The notes under the pieces: model-generated | The model's database searches: none | Seen by the model: only the letters and a program-made list of their open reading frames with translations | What the model was told of the DNA's origin: nothing | NCBI GenBank assembly: GCA_009842645.1 | Contig: VYFB01000085.1 | Coordinates: forward strand, 1 to 51,607 | Reading direction: 5' to 3' | From: Nitrospira sp. SB0677_bin_15 | GTDB lineage: Bacteria > Nitrospirota > Nitrospiria > Nitrospirales > UBA8639 | DNA: 51,607 bases | Shown here: piece by piece, positions 12,329 through 40,497 of the stretch | How the letters are laid out: each line of letters begins with the position of its first letter | Numbering within the stretch: the first letter of the stretch is position 1 | Position numbers and translations under genes: made by a program

Positions 12329-12598
12329 CAAGCAATGGTAGTGGGTCAGTTTGAATTCTGCTCTTTCACTCCGAGGTCGGGTCCTTCTTTCTGACATCCC
12401 CGACCCCGATCGGGGATCCAGAGTCTTTCCCCTCACCCCAGCCCTCTCCCTCAAGGGGCGAGGGAGTAAAAGCAAAGCAACGACACTGGATCAATCCCCG
12501 ACATCCTTAATCGGGGATCCAGTTCCTATTGTCGAGGATGACAAAAAAGGCATGACGGCGAAAAGGGAATTTCAAACTGACCCACTATCCAAGCAATG
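12329..12598. mobile_element. MITE-like element: about 20-bp TIRs TAGTGGGTCAGTTTGAATTC / GAATTTCAAACTGACCCACTA with 9-bp flanking direct repeats CAAGCAATG
   Basis: TIRs at 12339-12358 and 12567-12587; CAAGCAATG at 12329-12337 and 12590-12598; interior made of smaller palindromic repeats. Confidence 0.75.
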
Positions 12599-15605: not shown

Positions 15606-17087
15606 ATGAGCCAGCCCGTTCTTTCTTCAGGTTCGTCCACTCGTCCCAATACCGGGCGATTCCCGCTGGTCCGGACCAAACCCTTTGTTGAAGAGAGTCC
15701 TTGGGACGTCTACCGACGGATCGCCATGTCGCACCGGCCTTCCGTTCTGCTGGAAAGCGGGAAGCCGCCATCGGGTCAGGCTCGCTATTCCTTTGTGGCC
15801 GCCGACCCGTATCTGATTTTCTCCGGGAATCCGGGTCGCTACACCCTGGAAACAGCGCGCGGCACAACACAACGTCGCGGCGACCCGCTTTCTGCCTTAT
15901 TCAGCACGCTGGGTCCGTGCCTCGTGCCTCGTTCCCCTGCCCTGCCGCCGTTTATCGGCGGTGCCATCGGATACGTGAGTTATGATGCCGTCCGGCACTA
16001 CGAAATACTGCCGTCGCTGGCCCGCCGTGACCTGCCCTTGCCCGACCTGGAGTTCCTGTTTTTCGATCTGGTGGTGGCGATCGATCACCGTACGCAGTTG
16101 CTGCATATGATGTTTACGCCGGCCCCCGAGCGGTTGCTGGCCGAATCCCATGAGGCCTTGCAGCGTGAAGGCAACGCCCGAATGGACGAACTGGACAGCC
16201 GCTTGAGTGCCCCGTATACGAACCCGTCGGGGTCGCCGATCGTCGCGTCCATGATGGAAGGCACGCATTCCGAACGTGAGTACGTCGAGCGCGTTCAACA
16301 GTGTCAGGCGTTTATCGGGGCCGGGGACATTTATCAGGCCAATCTCGCGCAGCGTTTTTCCGTCGCGTTCAATGCTGAGGAGAACCAGTCGCTGCACACG
16401 GTCAGTTCAAACCTGTATCACCGCCTGCGCGTGGTGAACCCCTCGCCGTTTGCCGGGCTGTTCGTCACCGGGAACCTCGCGTTGGTTTCATCCTCGCCCG
16501 AACGACTTGTGCAGGCCACCGGCAACCGGGTGACGGCCCGGCCCATCGCCGGCACGCGACCGCGAGGCCGCACGACGGGCGAAGATCACGTCCTCATGGA
16601 CAACCTGCGGCTGGACGCAAAAGAACGCGCGGAACACCTCATGCTGGTGGACCTGGCCCGCAATGACCTGGGCCGGGTCTGCGAATACGGATCGGTTCAC
16701 GTTGAGGAATTCATGACGATCGAGCAATATTCGCACGTGGCGCATTTGGTGTCCGAGGTCGAAGGCACGCTGAAGCCCGCGTGTTCTACCCTGGATCTCA
16801 TCCGGTCCGTGTTTCCGGGCGGCACGATCACCGGCGCACCCAAGATCCGCTGTATGGAGATCATCGAGGAACTGGAACCCGTTCGTCGCGGGCCTTATAC
16901 CGGGTCCCTGGGGTACGTGAGTTGGACCGGCGACGTGGACTTCAACATTCTCATCCGCACCATGGTCCTGACGCAGCAGCGGGCCTATCTGCAAGTAGGT
17001 GCCGGAATCGTCGCGGATTCCGATCCCCGTCGCGAGTACCAGGAAACCCTGTACAAAGCCCAGGCCCTGTTCGAAGCGTTACAATAA
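15606..17087 (+). CDS. Chorismate-utilising enzyme: aminodeoxychorismate synthase component I / anthranilate synthase component I
   Basis: ARPIAGTRPRGRTTGED, HLMLVDLARNDLGRVCEYGSV, VFPGGTITGAPKIRCMEIIEELEP; followed by a pabC-like gene. Confidence 0.88.
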   Translation: MSQPVLSSGSSTRPNTGRFPLVRTKPFVEESPWDVYRRIAMSHRPSVLLESGKPPSGQARYSFVAADPYLIFSGNPGRYTLETARGTTQRRGDPLSALFSTLGPCLVPRSPALPPFIGGAIGYVSYDAVRHYEILPSLARRDLPLPDLEFLFFDLVVAIDHRTQLLHMMFTPAPERLLAESHEALQREGNARMDELDSRLSAPYTNPSGSPIVASMMEGTHSEREYVERVQQCQAFIGAGDIYQANLAQRFSVAFNAEENQSLHTVSSNLYHRLRVVNPSPFAGLFVTGNLALVSSSPERLVQATGNRVTARPIAGTRPRGRTTGEDHVLMDNLRLDAKERAEHLMLVDLARNDLGRVCEYGSVHVEEFMTIEQYSHVAHLVSEVEGTLKPACSTLDLIRSVFPGGTITGAPKIRCMEIIEELEPVRRGPYTGSLGYVSWTGDVDFNILIRTMVLTQQRAYLQVGAGIVADSDPRREYQETLYKAQALFEALQ

Positions 17088-17106: not shown

Positions 17107-18093
17107 ATGTGGGTATATCTGAATAACCGGATCGTGCAAGCGGAACGGGCGCGGGTCTCCGTGTTCGATTCTGGGTTCCTGTACGGCGACGGCGTCTTCG
17201 AAACCGTCAGGGTTCATGACGGGCGACCGGTGTGGCTGGACCGCCACCTCGCACGGATCGCCGACGCCTGCAAACAGATCCGGCTGCCATTGCCTGACAA
17301 ACCATGGCTGGCGATTTTTCAGAAGGTCATCGACAAGAATCGCATGGACCATGCGTTGATCCGCCTGACGCTCTCCCGTGGACCAATGCGCCCCTCTCCC
17401 CTTTCCCCCTTCAGCGAGAAAGAGGGTAAGGGCCAGGCAATACTCCCCTCTCCCCTTTCCGCTTTCAGCGAGAAAGAGGGAGAGGGCCAGGCAATACTCC
17501 CCTCTCCCCTGGTGGGAGAGGGCCAGGGTGAGGGGGGCGAGAGGGGCCAGACCACCACGGTCGTCCTGTTTCACCGCCCCCTTCCGCACGTGACGCCTTC
17601 TCAACGGCGCAAGGGCATCAGGCTCACCCTCACGACAATTCGCAGGCTTTCGCCGCGTTCACATCCGACACAAGCCAAAACCCTGAACTATCTGAACAAT
17701 CTGTTGGCCAAACGGGAGGCGGCAGAATGTGGAGCCTTCGACGGGTTGATGGTCACAACGGACGGATACGTCGCCGAATGCTCGATGAACAACGTGTTTT
17801 TCATCAAGGACCGGACCCTGTACACGCCGTCACTGGCCTGTGGCGTCCTACCCGGGATTACCCGTGGAGTTGTGTTGGATATGGCCCCAGCCCTGGGGCT
17901 TCAACCCCGGGAAGGCCGCTACCGTCCGGCATTCCTGTACAAAGCAGATGAATGTTTTCTAACCGGCAGCGGGACCGGCATCCTTCCAGTCCAAGCCATC
18001 GACGGACATTCCTTCCCCGGACAAACAGCCCGTTCCCATGTCGCTGCCATTCAAACCCGCTACAATCACCTCCTGAAAGCACACGGTAGATAA
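17107..18093 (+). CDS. pabC: Aminodeoxychorismate lyase / class IV aminotransferase (PabC-like), containing an in-frame repeat insertion
   Basis: VSVFDSGFLYGDGVFETVRVHDGRPVWLDRHLARI; KTLNYLNNLLAKREA; DGYVAECSMNNVFFI; LACGVLPGITRGVVLD. Confidence 0.88.
   Translation: MWVYLNNRIVQAERARVSVFDSGFLYGDGVFETVRVHDGRPVWLDRHLARIADACKQIRLPLPDKPWLAIFQKVIDKNRMDHALIRLTLSRGPMRPSPLSPFSEKEGKGQAILPSPLSAFSEKEGEGQAILPSPLVGEGQGEGGERGQTTTVVLFHRPLPHVTPSQRRKGIRLTLTTIRRLSPRSHPTQAKTLNYLNNLLAKREAAECGAFDGLMVTTDGYVAECSMNNVFFIKDRTLYTPSLACGVLPGITRGVVLDMAPALGLQPREGRYRPAFLYKADECFLTGSGTGILPVQAIDGHSFPGQTARSHVAAIQTRYNHLLKAHGR
17388..17552. repeat. CCCCTCTCCC...GGGAGAGGG(CC)AGGGTGAGGGGG palindromic repeat inserted in-frame in pabC as three related units
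   Basis: CCCTCTCCCCTTTCCSCTTTCAGCGAGAAAGAGGG(T/A)(A/G)AGGGCCAGGCAATACT repeated twice, then CCCTCTCCCCTGGTGGGAGAGGGCCAGGGTGAGGGGG; same family is intergenic at about 12430, 25730, 29150, 38757. Confidence 0.88.
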
Positions 18094-18194
18094 ACCGGAA
18101 CGCTGACAGGGTAGGGCCGTCTACAGCGCTCGGAACAGAGTTTATTGGGGCTTATGGAAACAAGGCTATGCGCAGATCAGGCTGTGCCACTAAA

Positions 18195-18336
18195 GGAACC
18201 TCTGATTAAGTGCACTATCGGGCGCATGGTTGCGTTGTGTCCTCGCTCAACCCTCACCTATCTCCCTGATAAGCTTCGGGTTTCGCTCCGGGACGCCTTG
18301 CCCTGCATCCCGCTATCACACTTAATCAGAGGTTCC
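18195..18336. mobile_element. MITE-like element family A, copy 2 (142 bp, 18-bp TIRs, flanked by TAAA)
   Basis: GGAACCTCTGATTAAGTG ... CACTTAATCAGAGGTTCC; TAAA at 18191-18194 and 18337-18340. Confidence 0.88.
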
Positions 18337-18450
18337 TAAAGGCTTTATTAGCGAGTGGTTACGGCACCGGGAGTTGATTGGGTGATTGGAGTTGAGTTAT
18401 TTTAATAGACTGACGGAAACGTTTTTGTTGAGAATAGAAAAGAGGGTGCC

Positions 18451-19146
18451 GTGGCAGAAAAGCAGTCCGGATACCGGGACTATAGCTCTGGAGATATTGC
18501 TGCGTATAGTGTGACCGAGGCGTCCAGATATGTGCGTATTCCCGCACCAACTCTCCGCACATGGGTCGACGGACAATCTTATGGCGAACAATCTATGCGG
18601 TCACCTTTTCTCCCGCTGCTTGATGCACCTGAATATAACCCTACCCGACTTTCCTTTAATAATCTCATTGAGGTGTTTACGCTACGGGCATTAAGAACAA
18701 AGCACGGAATCTCTATTGGAGCGGCACGTGAAGCAATGGGGGTGGCGCAACAGTACTATCAAATTGATCGACTATTCCTTCGGCCAGAGGACTTACGAAC
18801 CCAGGCTGGCAAGTTGTTTCTTAAGAAGTATGGAGAACTCGTTAATCTCAACCGGTCATGCCAGCTTGCCATGGAAAAAGTTCTCAATGACTCTCTCGAA
18901 CGGATTGAACTTGATGACTCCAACCTCCCCATCCGCCTTTTCCCTATGGCCGGCGATACCAACAGAGTGATCGCCATCGACCCTTCCATTGCTTTTGGTC
19001 GTCCATTTATTGTCCGCAACGGCATCTCAACAATAGCTATTATTGATCGTCTTAATGCCAATGAAGACGAGGAGGAAATAGCGGAAGATTATGGCTTGTT
19101 GCCTGAGGAAATGAAGCAAGCAATTATCTACGAACAGGCAGCATAA
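18451..19146 (+). CDS. DUF433-type antitoxin with N-terminal MerR-like HTH
   Basis: YSVTEASRYVRIPAPTLRTWV... and C-terminal IDPSIAFGRPFIVRNGISTIAIIDRLNANEDEEEIAEDYGLLPEEMKQAI (DUF433-like). Confidence 0.75.
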   Translation: MAEKQSGYRDYSSGDIAAYSVTEASRYVRIPAPTLRTWVDGQSYGEQSMRSPFLPLLDAPEYNPTRLSFNNLIEVFTLRALRTKHGISIGAAREAMGVAQQYYQIDRLFLRPEDLRTQAGKLFLKKYGELVNLNRSCQLAMEKVLNDSLERIELDDSNLPIRLFPMAGDTNRVIAIDPSIAFGRPFIVRNGISTIAIIDRLNANEDEEEIAEDYGLLPEEMKQAIIYEQAA

Positions 19147-19148
19147 AC

Positions 19149-19565
19149 GTGATCTTTTTTACGGACCGTGATTTGGGTTCGTTATTTCCCAAGATTCTCT
19201 TAGCCGCAGGCATTCAAGTCGAAACATACAACGACCATTTCAAAGACAACGACCTATCTGATGAAAGCTGGTTGTCAGAGGTTGGTCGTAACGAATGGTG
19301 TGCTGTCTCAAAAGATAAACGTATACGCTACAGGCCCAATGAAAGGGAGGCAGTGATGCGGGCCGGTGTCGGTCTTTTTATCGTCATAGGGACAAACGCC
19401 ACCCATAAAGAACTTGCAAATAACTTCGTGGCTACTTACCAAAAGATAGAGATCTTCCTGGAAAAACATCATCCCCCATTCATTGCAAAAGTCTATCGAC
19501 CGTCCGCTAAAGAATCGCAAGGCAGAAATAAAGCAGGGCGCGTCGAGTTGTGGTACTCACCTTAA
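19149..19565 (+). CDS. PIN-like (DUF5615/VapC45-like) toxin
   Basis: IFFTDRDLGSLFPKILLAAGIQVETYNDHF...DESWLSEVGRNEWCAVSKDKRIRYRPNE; adjacent to DUF433 gene. Confidence 0.7.
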   Translation: MIFFTDRDLGSLFPKILLAAGIQVETYNDHFKDNDLSDESWLSEVGRNEWCAVSKDKRIRYRPNEREAVMRAGVGLFIVIGTNATHKELANNFVATYQKIEIFLEKHHPPFIAKVYRPSAKESQGRNKAGRVELWYSP

Positions 19566-25302: not shown

Positions 25303-25656
25303 GGGGGTGACTGGCTTCGACGGGGATCAGGAGGTCAACGGTGCGTGTCGAGCTCTCGGAGTCTCGTTAAACCTTCGGGAACCTTATAATTGCCAACGAA
25401 GAATTGGCTCTCGCAGCGTAATCACGACTGCGACGTCTCCCCATGCTTTGTCTGCGGGCATGGATGAGGCGCTACTTCAGCAGGCTGGTCCAATGTTGGT
25501 GCTCAGCAACGGCGGATGAGATTTTTCTGGGCTAGCGAACGTTCTAAGCCGGTCAGTGGGCGTGGACGGTTGCGAATCTTAAAACATTGACTACACACGT
25601 AGGACCGTTGTGCTGAATATCTTCGGACGCGGGTTCAAACCCCGCCACCTCCACCA
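25303..25656 (+). ncRNA. ssrA: Transfer-messenger RNA (tmRNA), tag (A)ANEELALAA
   Basis: 5' GGGGGTGACTGGCTTCGACGGGG; tag ORF GCC AAC GAA GAA TTG GCT CTC GCA GCG TAA; 3' GGGTTCAAACCCCGCCACCTCCACCA. Confidence 0.96.
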
Positions 25657-25697: not shown

Positions 25698-25778
25698 GAA
25701 AGTGCATGGATGCACTCATTTGTTGACAATCCCCCCTCACCCCAGCCCTCTCCCACATAGGGGAGAGGGAGAAATGCG

Positions 25779-29049: not shown

Positions 29050-29374
29050 GTCAGCATTGGCAAAACCCGTGGGGTTTTCCTTTCCTCATTCAAATCTCAG
29101 CAGATTATCCGTCTTTGAGAATGAAAAAGAAAGGCTCAACTTCCTCACCCTCACTCACCCTCACCTTAATCCTCTCCCATCAAGGGAGAGGAGACTGGGA
29201 GAAGAGAATTACCCTCATTTGTGCCTTGCCATGTGGGAGTCTATAATTCTTGTTGATAGTCACCCTCACCCCCTGCTTCCGCAGGGGCAGGCTTAATCCT
29301 CTCCCGTCAAGGGAGAGGAGACTGGGAAAAAGAATATCCCATCAAGGGAGAGGAAAGTATACAGGAGGACGTTC

Positions 29375-38756: not shown

Positions 38757-38868
38757 CCCCCTCTCCCTTGGCGGGAGAGGGCCGGGGTGAGGGGGAAACT
38801 CTCAGCGCCTGTCCTGAGCGTAACGATAGTGAAGGCGAAGGAAGCGTAACGGAGTGAAGGCGAAGGGA
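38757..38868. repeat. Tandem juxtaposition of CCCTCTCCC...GGGTGAGGGGG and CCTGTCCTGAGCGTAACG...GAAGG repeats immediately upstream of prfC
   Basis: Shared with many other intergenic regions of the window. Confidence 0.8.
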
Positions 38869-40497
38869 ATGAGCGAACACAGACAACCCATGGTCACGTC
38901 CGACCCGCACAGACAGAACGATATCCGGGTCCAGGCCCAAAAGCGCCGGACCTTCGCCATCATCAGTCATCCCGACGCGGGAAAAACCACCGTCACGGAA
39001 AAACTGTTGCTCTATTCGGGGATGGTCCGGACGGCAGGCATGGTGGGTAGCCGGAAAAGCGCCAAAATGGCGACCTCCGACTGGATGGACATGGAACAGG
39101 AACGCGGGATCTCGATCACCGCGTCGGCCATGCAGTTCCAATACAAGCAAACCGTCATCAACGTCCTCGACACGCCGGGCCACCAGGATTTCTGTGAAGA
39201 TACCTACCGGACGCTGACCGCGGCGGACAGTGCCGTGATGGTCATCGACGCGGCAAAAGGCGTTGAGGCTCAAACCCGGAAATTGTTTGAGGTGTGCCGG
39301 TTGCGCAATATCCCAGTGCTGACGTTGATCAACAAAATGGACCTGCCGGGGCGCCCGCCACTGGATCTCATGGCCGATGTCGAAGACGTCCTCCGCATTC
39401 ACGCCAACCCGGTCAATTGGCCCGTGGGGTCAGGACAACAATTCACGGGCGTCGTGGACCGCGCCTCCCGCCGGGTCTCGCTGTTCAAAAAAATGGCGGC
39501 GCAGGGCGCAGCCAAAGCCGACCGCACGGAAATTTCTTTGGACGGTCCCGAAGTCACGACCCTGATTGAGGAAGACGTCCTGCAGGAAGTCAACCACGAT
39601 TTGGAACTGTTGGACGTGGCCGGGAATCCGTATTCGCAAGAAGCTTTTCTTCGCGGTGAAGTCACCCCCGTATTTTTTGCCTCCGCGCTCACGAATTTCG
39701 GCATTGAAAATTTCTTTGACGCCTTCGTGGAGATGGCACCCGCGGCTATGCCGCGCATGGCCGACCGGCCTAACGGCACGCAAATCACCGTGGACCCCGT
39801 GGAGCACCCGTTCAGCGCCTACATCTTCAAAATCCAGGCAAACATGAATCCCCGGCATCGCGACAGCACCGCCTTCCTCCGCGTCTGCTCCGGCCGGTTC
39901 GAGCGTGACATGGTGGTCAAACATCATCGCCTGGGGCATGACGTGCGCCTGTCACGGCCGCACAGTCTCGTGGCCAAGGGCCGCCACACCGTGGACGAGG
40001 CGTATCCCGGAGACATCATCGGCGTGATCAACCCGGGACAATTTGCCATCGGCGATACCATTTCATTGAGTGACGGATTCAATTATCAATCCCTCCCCCA
40101 GTTTCAACCGGAAGTGTTCGCCCGGATTCAACCCACCGACGTGGGCAAACGCAAAGCCTTTGACAAAGGCATGGAGCAAATGGCCGCCGAAGGCACGGTC
40201 CGGATTCTGCGGAGCCTCGATGAGTTGGATTTCCTCGTGGCCGCGGTGGGGCGCCTCCAGTTCGACGTGCTGGAATTTCGCCTCCGCAATGAGTACCGGG
40301 TGGAGACCCGGCTCGAACCGTTGAGCTATGCGTGCAGTGCCTGGGTAGTCGGAGACCTCGACACCTTTCGCGCCCCGAGCGACGCGATGATCGTCAAAGA
40401 CCACCGGGACCGTCCCATCGTGCTCTTCTGCTCTCCCTGGTCCAAAACCTTCACGAAAGAACGCAACCCCGACCACGACCTGCTGGAGATGGGGTAA
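38869..40497 (+). CDS. prfC: Peptide chain release factor 3
   Basis: RRTFAIISHPDAGKTTVTEKLLLYSG, SDWMDMEQERGISITASAMQF, VLDTPGHQDFCEDTYRTLTAADSAVMVIDAAKGVE. Confidence 0.95.
   Translation: MSEHRQPMVTSDPHRQNDIRVQAQKRRTFAIISHPDAGKTTVTEKLLLYSGMVRTAGMVGSRKSAKMATSDWMDMEQERGISITASAMQFQYKQTVINVLDTPGHQDFCEDTYRTLTAADSAVMVIDAAKGVEAQTRKLFEVCRLRNIPVLTLINKMDLPGRPPLDLMADVEDVLRIHANPVNWPVGSGQQFTGVVDRASRRVSLFKKMAAQGAAKADRTEISLDGPEVTTLIEEDVLQEVNHDLELLDVAGNPYSQEAFLRGEVTPVFFASALTNFGIENFFDAFVEMAPAAMPRMADRPNGTQITVDPVEHPFSAYIFKIQANMNPRHRDSTAFLRVCSGRFERDMVVKHHRLGHDVRLSRPHSLVAKGRHTVDEAYPGDIIGVINPGQFAIGDTISLSDGFNYQSLPQFQPEVFARIQPTDVGKRKAFDKGMEQMAAEGTVRILRSLDELDFLVAAVGRLQFDVLEFRLRNEYRVETRLEPLSYACSAWVVGDLDTFRAPSDAMIVKDHRDRPIVLFCSPWSKTFTKERNPDHDLLEMG

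Follow-up and report, generated by a model that had tools for sequence, protein, structure and literature searches.

A REP-like hairpin repeat lying in frame in the O-pocket loop of a PabC-like enzyme in a Nitrospira-like genus

How does a short palindromic repeat of the intergenic kind come to be read, in frame, within a conserved enzyme? The question is raised by a pabC-like gene (class IV aminotransferase/4-amino-4-deoxychorismate lyase) in a window of 51,607 nt, i.e., the whole stretch of DNA analysed, which is contig C45 of a metagenome-assembled genome (MAG; 2.55 Mb, 99% complete). A preliminary description of this window had proposed that the gene was colonised by a repeat in the manner of the Rickettsia palindromic elements (RPEs). 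Our best explanation, to which we assign a probability of about 85%, is that a hairpin resembling the repetitive extragenic palindromes (REPs) landed in a loop of pabC, grew there in tandem, and is tolerated as selfish DNA. All genome evidence consists of MAG sequences. The genome of the window is designated G000, and the other genomes of the same Nitrospira-like genus G001 to G013. Judged by pabC, the closest relatives of G000 are MAGs labelled Nitrospira sp. or Nitrospirales, some of them presumably of sponge origin, as we take from the isolate names.

The repeat within pabC and across the genome

The open reading frame and its translation agree with the earlier description: pabC is open across the insert, and after IRLTLSRG the protein reads MRPSPLSPFSEKEGKGQAILPSPLSAFSEKEGEGQAILPSPLVGEGQGEGGERGQ. 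Three related, repeat-derived units are indeed present (Table 1), but they are not all alike. The first two have a long-loop hairpin form with a mutated loop, and resemble longer-loop forms found elsewhere in the genome (e.g., CCCTCTCCC-TATTTCCCGCTTAATGCGGGAAAT-GGGAGAGGG); the short loop and the tail of the standard form are seen in the third alone. The standard element is made up of CCCTCTCCC, a loop of 3-6 nt, GGGAGAGGG, 1-3 nt, and GGGTGAGGG, about 38 nt including flanking bases, and its stem is a perfect 9 bp. The window contains 11 instances of CCCTCTCCC or its complement (0.79 expected from shuffles); five of these 9-mers lie inside the insert, within 170 nt, against a maximum of two in any other 170-nt stretch of the window. 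The third unit scores 35.8 bits with nhmmer, and an Rfam scan gave no family over the insert. Compared with insert-less orthologues of the genus the loop has grown from 7 to 56 residues, a net gain of 49, which refines the earlier figure of about 50 amino acids added without breaking the frame. An assembly artefact is unlikely, because independent MAGs carry the insert and because the units differ by substitutions.

Simple slippage of a proline- and glycine-rich loop, whose likeness to the intergenic repeat would then be compositional only, might be argued from genome G012, where a unit contains a true 6-nt slippage (GAGGGA)n, and from the unrelated GD-rich loop of G002. Yet unit 3 matches, exactly and completely, the 35-nt full-length element pattern including the tail (the reversed control pattern gave 0 matches), the hairpin pairing has a z of -4.7, and the complete element stands at the same place in other species, intact in G004. 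We give this explanation hardly any credence.

Exact full elements number 131 in the G000 genome (reversed-pattern control 0). The element is present in 13 of the 14 genomes of the genus, in 8 to 131 copies, and in two of the 16 genomes examined from elsewhere in the family and order. A census in a 402-kb sample (16% of the genome, stretches chosen mostly from hit-bearing contigs, genes called by a purpose-made gene caller) yielded 78 distinct elements, of which 71 lie outside genes, one at a gene edge, and six within genes, at a coding fraction of 0.787. With 79% of the sequence coding and 71 of the 78 elements nonetheless outside genes, insertions into genes are strongly selected against, though some survive. 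Such a short palindrome, in many similar copies and mainly extragenic, accords with the definition of a REP (PMC12306157). Most reading frames of the element are free of stop codons: on average 4.8 of the six are open, compared with 3.9 in intergenic sequence of equal length, and at least five are open in 83% of the elements versus 33% of the intergenic controls. The preliminary description had also placed the family between genes at about 12430, 25730, 38757 and 29150-29340. The first three copies were found where expected (Table 1), whereas the sequence at 29158-29319 belongs to a diverged sub-type (TCCTCTCCC..GGGAGAGGA).

In the G000 genome, the clear cases within genes are three, namely pabC, larC (encoding a Ni-pincer cofactor protein; in-frame reading ALTPTPLPGGEGF), and a DNA methyltransferase gene (N6/N4 methylase; SSPLPTAGEGQGEGD). 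The larC and methylase inserts differ between species of the genus, the methylase loop carrying the element in either orientation depending on the species. This methylase gene (L062:6116-9514) has, in addition, another repeat-like segment, some 40 amino acids long (VLSPVEGPVRASTLPLRDDAQHERNLVRPERSVSGVEG), that is absent in G005, G007, G009, and G012. Since plasmids of Azospirillum, Sinorhizobium and others carry related repeats, this family, or one that looks like it, extends beyond Nitrospirota. These repeats too can be read in frame, in an Azospirillum DUF1365 protein (LTPTPLPQGERG) and, apparently twice, in a dihydrolipoamide acyltransferase on a Sphingomonas plasmid (L134:1183-2493; TPSPLVGEGRGEGASQ), where its position suggests the linker that follows the lipoyl domain. 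A literature search with the 9-mer of the element returned only unrelated sequence matches.

The enzyme around the insert

An AlphaFold model based on 30 sequences has a mean predicted local distance difference test score (pLDDT) of 82.5, with most of the body above 90; an earlier model from 13 relatives (pLDDT 56) was discarded. Residues 98-144 of the insert score below 50, between the strands formed by residues 81-90 and 149-156, and are predicted to be disordered. The model matches branched-chain aminotransferase (BCAT) and D-amino-acid transaminase structures with Z of 29-32. An alignment routed through an insert-less relative places the loop at residues 94-108 (GTSPRAHQFPENTVK) of the Bacillus D-amino-acid transaminase; by this alignment the insert site coincides with what is, in fold-type-IV transaminases, the O-pocket loop, which adjoins the active site. 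The surface loop suggested at first is thus a loop between strands, but specifically one near the active site, and alignment with the insert-less orthologues of G003 and G005 confirms that relatives can lack the insertion. According to a published study, the O-pocket loop of another transaminase seems uninvolved in substrate binding. The insert thus sits near the active site, but in a loop that serves different roles in different enzymes, and a harmful effect need not follow.

Pfam Aminotran_4 matches the pabC product in two stretches (E 4e-62); together with the catalytic lysine K190 and the structural matches this establishes a class IV pyridoxal-phosphate fold with its catalytic lysine. The best aminodeoxychorismate-lyase model, NF005800, gave 199.6 bits, under its cut-off of 308, and the branched-chain model NF006185 likewise scored under its cut-off. 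As no lyase model passed, we file the enzyme only as a class IV aminotransferase that is PabC-like because of the pabB neighbour directly upstream.

Could pabC be a decaying pseudogene, another class IV enzyme having taken over the synthesis of p-aminobenzoate? Two paralogues in the genome might be candidates, but both score better with other models, L048 with IlvE (above cut-off) and L047, a partial sequence, with D-amino-acid transaminase, and pabB is still found directly upstream of pabC. Moreover, the frame is open in every insert-bearing species, neither K190 nor any other residue that defines the fold varies, and the ratio of nonsynonymous to synonymous substitutions (dN/dS) outside the loop lies at 0.10-0.28 in every pairing of eight species, with the insert or without. 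We see no sign of a dead pabC or of a substitute copy, and consider this alternative very improbable. The body of the enzyme is under purifying selection in either case, and the enzyme is apparently working.

Species series and history of the insert

The pabC loop was compared among 13 species of the genus, along with rpoB and pabC trees that agree in outline and have low support at some forks. Loops with the repeat comprise 56 residues in G000, 39 in G011 and G001, 30 in G012, 24 in G013, and 18 in G004; loops without it comprise 7 residues in G003 and G005, 15 in G007, and 17 in G006. In G009 a 25-residue loop has an element of this family at the identical site but reversed in orientation, in G010 a 29-residue loop carries a different repeat (...AILRSAQDRL...), and the 39-residue loop of G002 holds an unrelated GD-rich segment. 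In other genera of the family the orthologues have 13-residue loops; these and the 7-residue loops of G003 and G005 dispose of the possibility that the segment is an ancestral conserved linker. Three units are present in G000, two in two species, and one in others.

In the trees, species that lack the insert fall between the insert-bearing G004, G012, G013, G001, G011, and G000. The insert-bearers have in common the left flank ACAATGTT or close to it (ACACTG in G012), and their right flanks are similar (GAGACC in G004, G013 and relatives). With flanks so similar, the simplest reading is probably one old insertion, followed by at least two losses and by later tandem change; the insert of G009 is independent of the others. 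The in-frame insertion proposed earlier is thereby retained, and refined to an old event spanning several species with subsequent tandem duplication. Three separate insertions in the G000 gene can be rejected, since every unit opens with the flank CAAT; each unit restarting in this way argues for growth in tandem, the flank being duplicated along with the element. In G013 and G012 the loop of one unit is joined to the tail of another, which would fit a deletion between units.

We propose the following course of events. In an ancestor of several species, an intergenic REP-like hairpin would have inserted itself into the O-pocket loop of pabC. Two circumstances would explain its retention: most of its reading frames are free of stops, and the loop in this genus, already off the family consensus, would tolerate low-complexity sequence. 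Duplication within the gene, together with the left flank (a unit of 54 nt, or 18 codons), would then have produced the two units seen in two species and the three of G000, and units would have contracted or been lost in other lineages. We infer this order of insertion, duplication, and loss from the alignment. Messenger RNA and protein would carry the repeat as a disordered loop rich in proline, glycine, and glutamate.

Several points weigh against this account. If there was a single insertion, both the G003/G005 and the G006/G007/G010 lineage must have lost it, and independent insertions at the same spot may have occurred instead. Furthermore, the retention of the insert in several species and the three invasions of one loop by unrelated repeat events could mean that an enlarged loop is useful, i.e., that selection maintains the repeat-derived segment for an effect on substrate access, dimer contacts, or regulation. 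Against such an adaptive role, close species differ freely in the sequence, length, and orientation of the insert, none is present in G003 and G005, the segment is predicted to be disordered, and the dN/dS of the body is alike with and without it; we find it unlikely. Somewhat more doubtful still is the idea of the O-pocket loop as a recurrent acceptor of mobile hairpin repeats, with the number of copies serving as a length dial for an active-site loop; if true, repeat turnover would tune the enzyme instead of being merely tolerated. The cost of the insert most probably ranges from none to mild, and it represents tolerated selfish or slipping DNA rather than a selected new part.

Surroundings, mobilisation, and known systems

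Table 1. Positions of the pabC insert, its gene, and the related repeats in the window
Feature	Position	Strand	Remarks
pabB/trpE-like chorismate-binding enzyme	15606..17087	+	Pfam Chorismate_bind E 9e-92
pabC-like class IV aminotransferase/4-amino-4-deoxychorismate lyase	17107..18093	+	ORF, 328 aa, carries insert
Enlarged O-pocket loop	17383..17550	+	56 codons; 7 in insert-less genus orthologues, 13 in other genera
Repeat unit 1	17384..17437	+	54 nt; long-loop hairpin form (MRPSPLSPFSEKEGKGQA)
Repeat unit 2	17438..17491	+	54 nt, 48 of them as in unit 1; starts with flank CAAT
Repeat unit 3	17492..17538	+	~47 nt; CAATACT flank and complete standard element 17498-17536
Intergenic element copy	12427..12466	-	35.9 bits (nhmmer)
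Intergenic element copy	25731..25770	-	38.8 bits; just 3' of tmRNA gene
Diverged sub-type (TCCTCTCCCATCAAGGGAGAGGA)	29158..29193	-	15.7 bits
Diverged sub-type, second copy	29298..29319		12.6 bits
Intergenic element copy	38757..38797	+	39.6 bits

The tmRNA gene occupies positions 25303-25656, and a hairpin element follows 75 nt downstream. The copy at 38757 is adjoined by a second interspersed repeat-like stretch (38801-38870; tgtcctgagcgtaacgatagtgaaggcgaagg), and a repeat similar to the latter may be the source of the ILRSAQDRL in the PabC of G010. One hundred nt 3' of pabC lies a 144-nt element (18194-18337) that resembles a miniature inverted-repeat transposable element (MITE) and is bounded by inverted ends of 29 nt (AGGAACCTCTGATTAAGTG...). 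The genome contains 241 copies of this end sequence (119 forward, 122 reverse; control 0); the ends are often exact, paired 124 nt apart, and found about 35 nt inside many contig ends. This MITE-like family is very abundant, looks recent, and breaks the assembly. A DUF433/HTH gene and then a PIN-like gene (18451-19565) probably form a toxin-antitoxin pair.

The genome encodes a REP-associated tyrosine transposase (RAYT, NF047646) at L016:1410-2040. It is flanked on both sides by GTAGGTCGGATTAGCGGAGCGTAATCCGAC palindromes (GTAGGTCGGATTAGCG-type), unlike the CCCTCTCCC element, of which the nearest copy lies about 700 nt downstream; as the flanking palindromes differ, we rejected this RAYT as mobiliser of the CCCTCTCCC family. 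The gene and its flanks are, in their own right, a GTAG-type REP system in Nitrospirota, with relatives in G007, G010, G012, and G013. No RAYT was found in seven of the 14 species of the genus, six of which carry the element. Across the genus the presence of a RAYT goes with more elements (exact one-sided p 0.0035), as does, at p 0.095, that of the L016 type; neither value is corrected for shared ancestry, so the association is only a lead.

Palindromes read in frame in genes of functional proteins, with most copies elsewhere, are known from Rickettsia as RPEs (PMC2229807), and guanylate kinase (gmk) of R. conorii with such an insert is active with a changed substrate affinity (reviewed in PMC2229807). 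The pabC element is like them in these respects and in that the segment is tolerated, and in-frame insertion into conserved genes holds for pabC, larC, and the methylase gene. RPEs, however, measure 105-146 bp (PMC2229807), with a CGTC tag on the small RPE-4/6 types (PMC3733652); the present element, in a member of the Nitrospirota, has about 38 nt, a GGGTGAGGG tail, no CGTC tag, and tandem growth within the gene, so that the published RPE features, compared without aligning it to RPE copies, set it apart. The label 'RPE-like' thus suits the in-frame colonisation, but the element is REP-like and, by size and tag, no RPE. The intragenic GTAG/CGTC REPs of Di Nocera et al. 2013 (PMC3733652), clusters of which encode 43-82 amino acids, are hairpins of 20-40 nt that bear a tag and, like our element, are mainly intergenic and at times in frame in conserved genes. 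Our consensus TCCCTCTCCCnnnnGGGAGAGGGCTGGGGTGAGGGGG has neither tag at an end, its targets are pabC, larC, and the methylase gene, to judge from the text consulted it is not among the families of that paper, and the RAYT of the genome is flanked by another palindrome rather than by the same repeat. With REPINs and RAYT-mobilised REPs it shares the interspersed hairpin family and a true RAYT gene in the genome, although the repeat beside that gene is a different one. The RU/ERIC repeats of enterobacteria and the Correia elements of Neisseria (Delihas, PMC2229807) are likewise small, non-autonomous, open-framed, and fused to genes, but they are MITE-like and about 100-170 bp long, whereas the pabC element is a single short hairpin with a tail. 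In-frame invasion by repeats, a little-studied route by which selfish DNA lengthens proteins, is therefore already known in Rickettsia and other bacteria; what is new is the host, the repeat family, and the target, by which the colonisation of genes by palindromic repeats is extended to Nitrospirota and to an untagged family. Beyond the earlier systems, one conserved enzyme here offers a series of species with no insert, one, two, or three units, the opposite orientation, or another repeat, making testable the entry, growth, and cost of selfish hairpins in proteins beside an active site.
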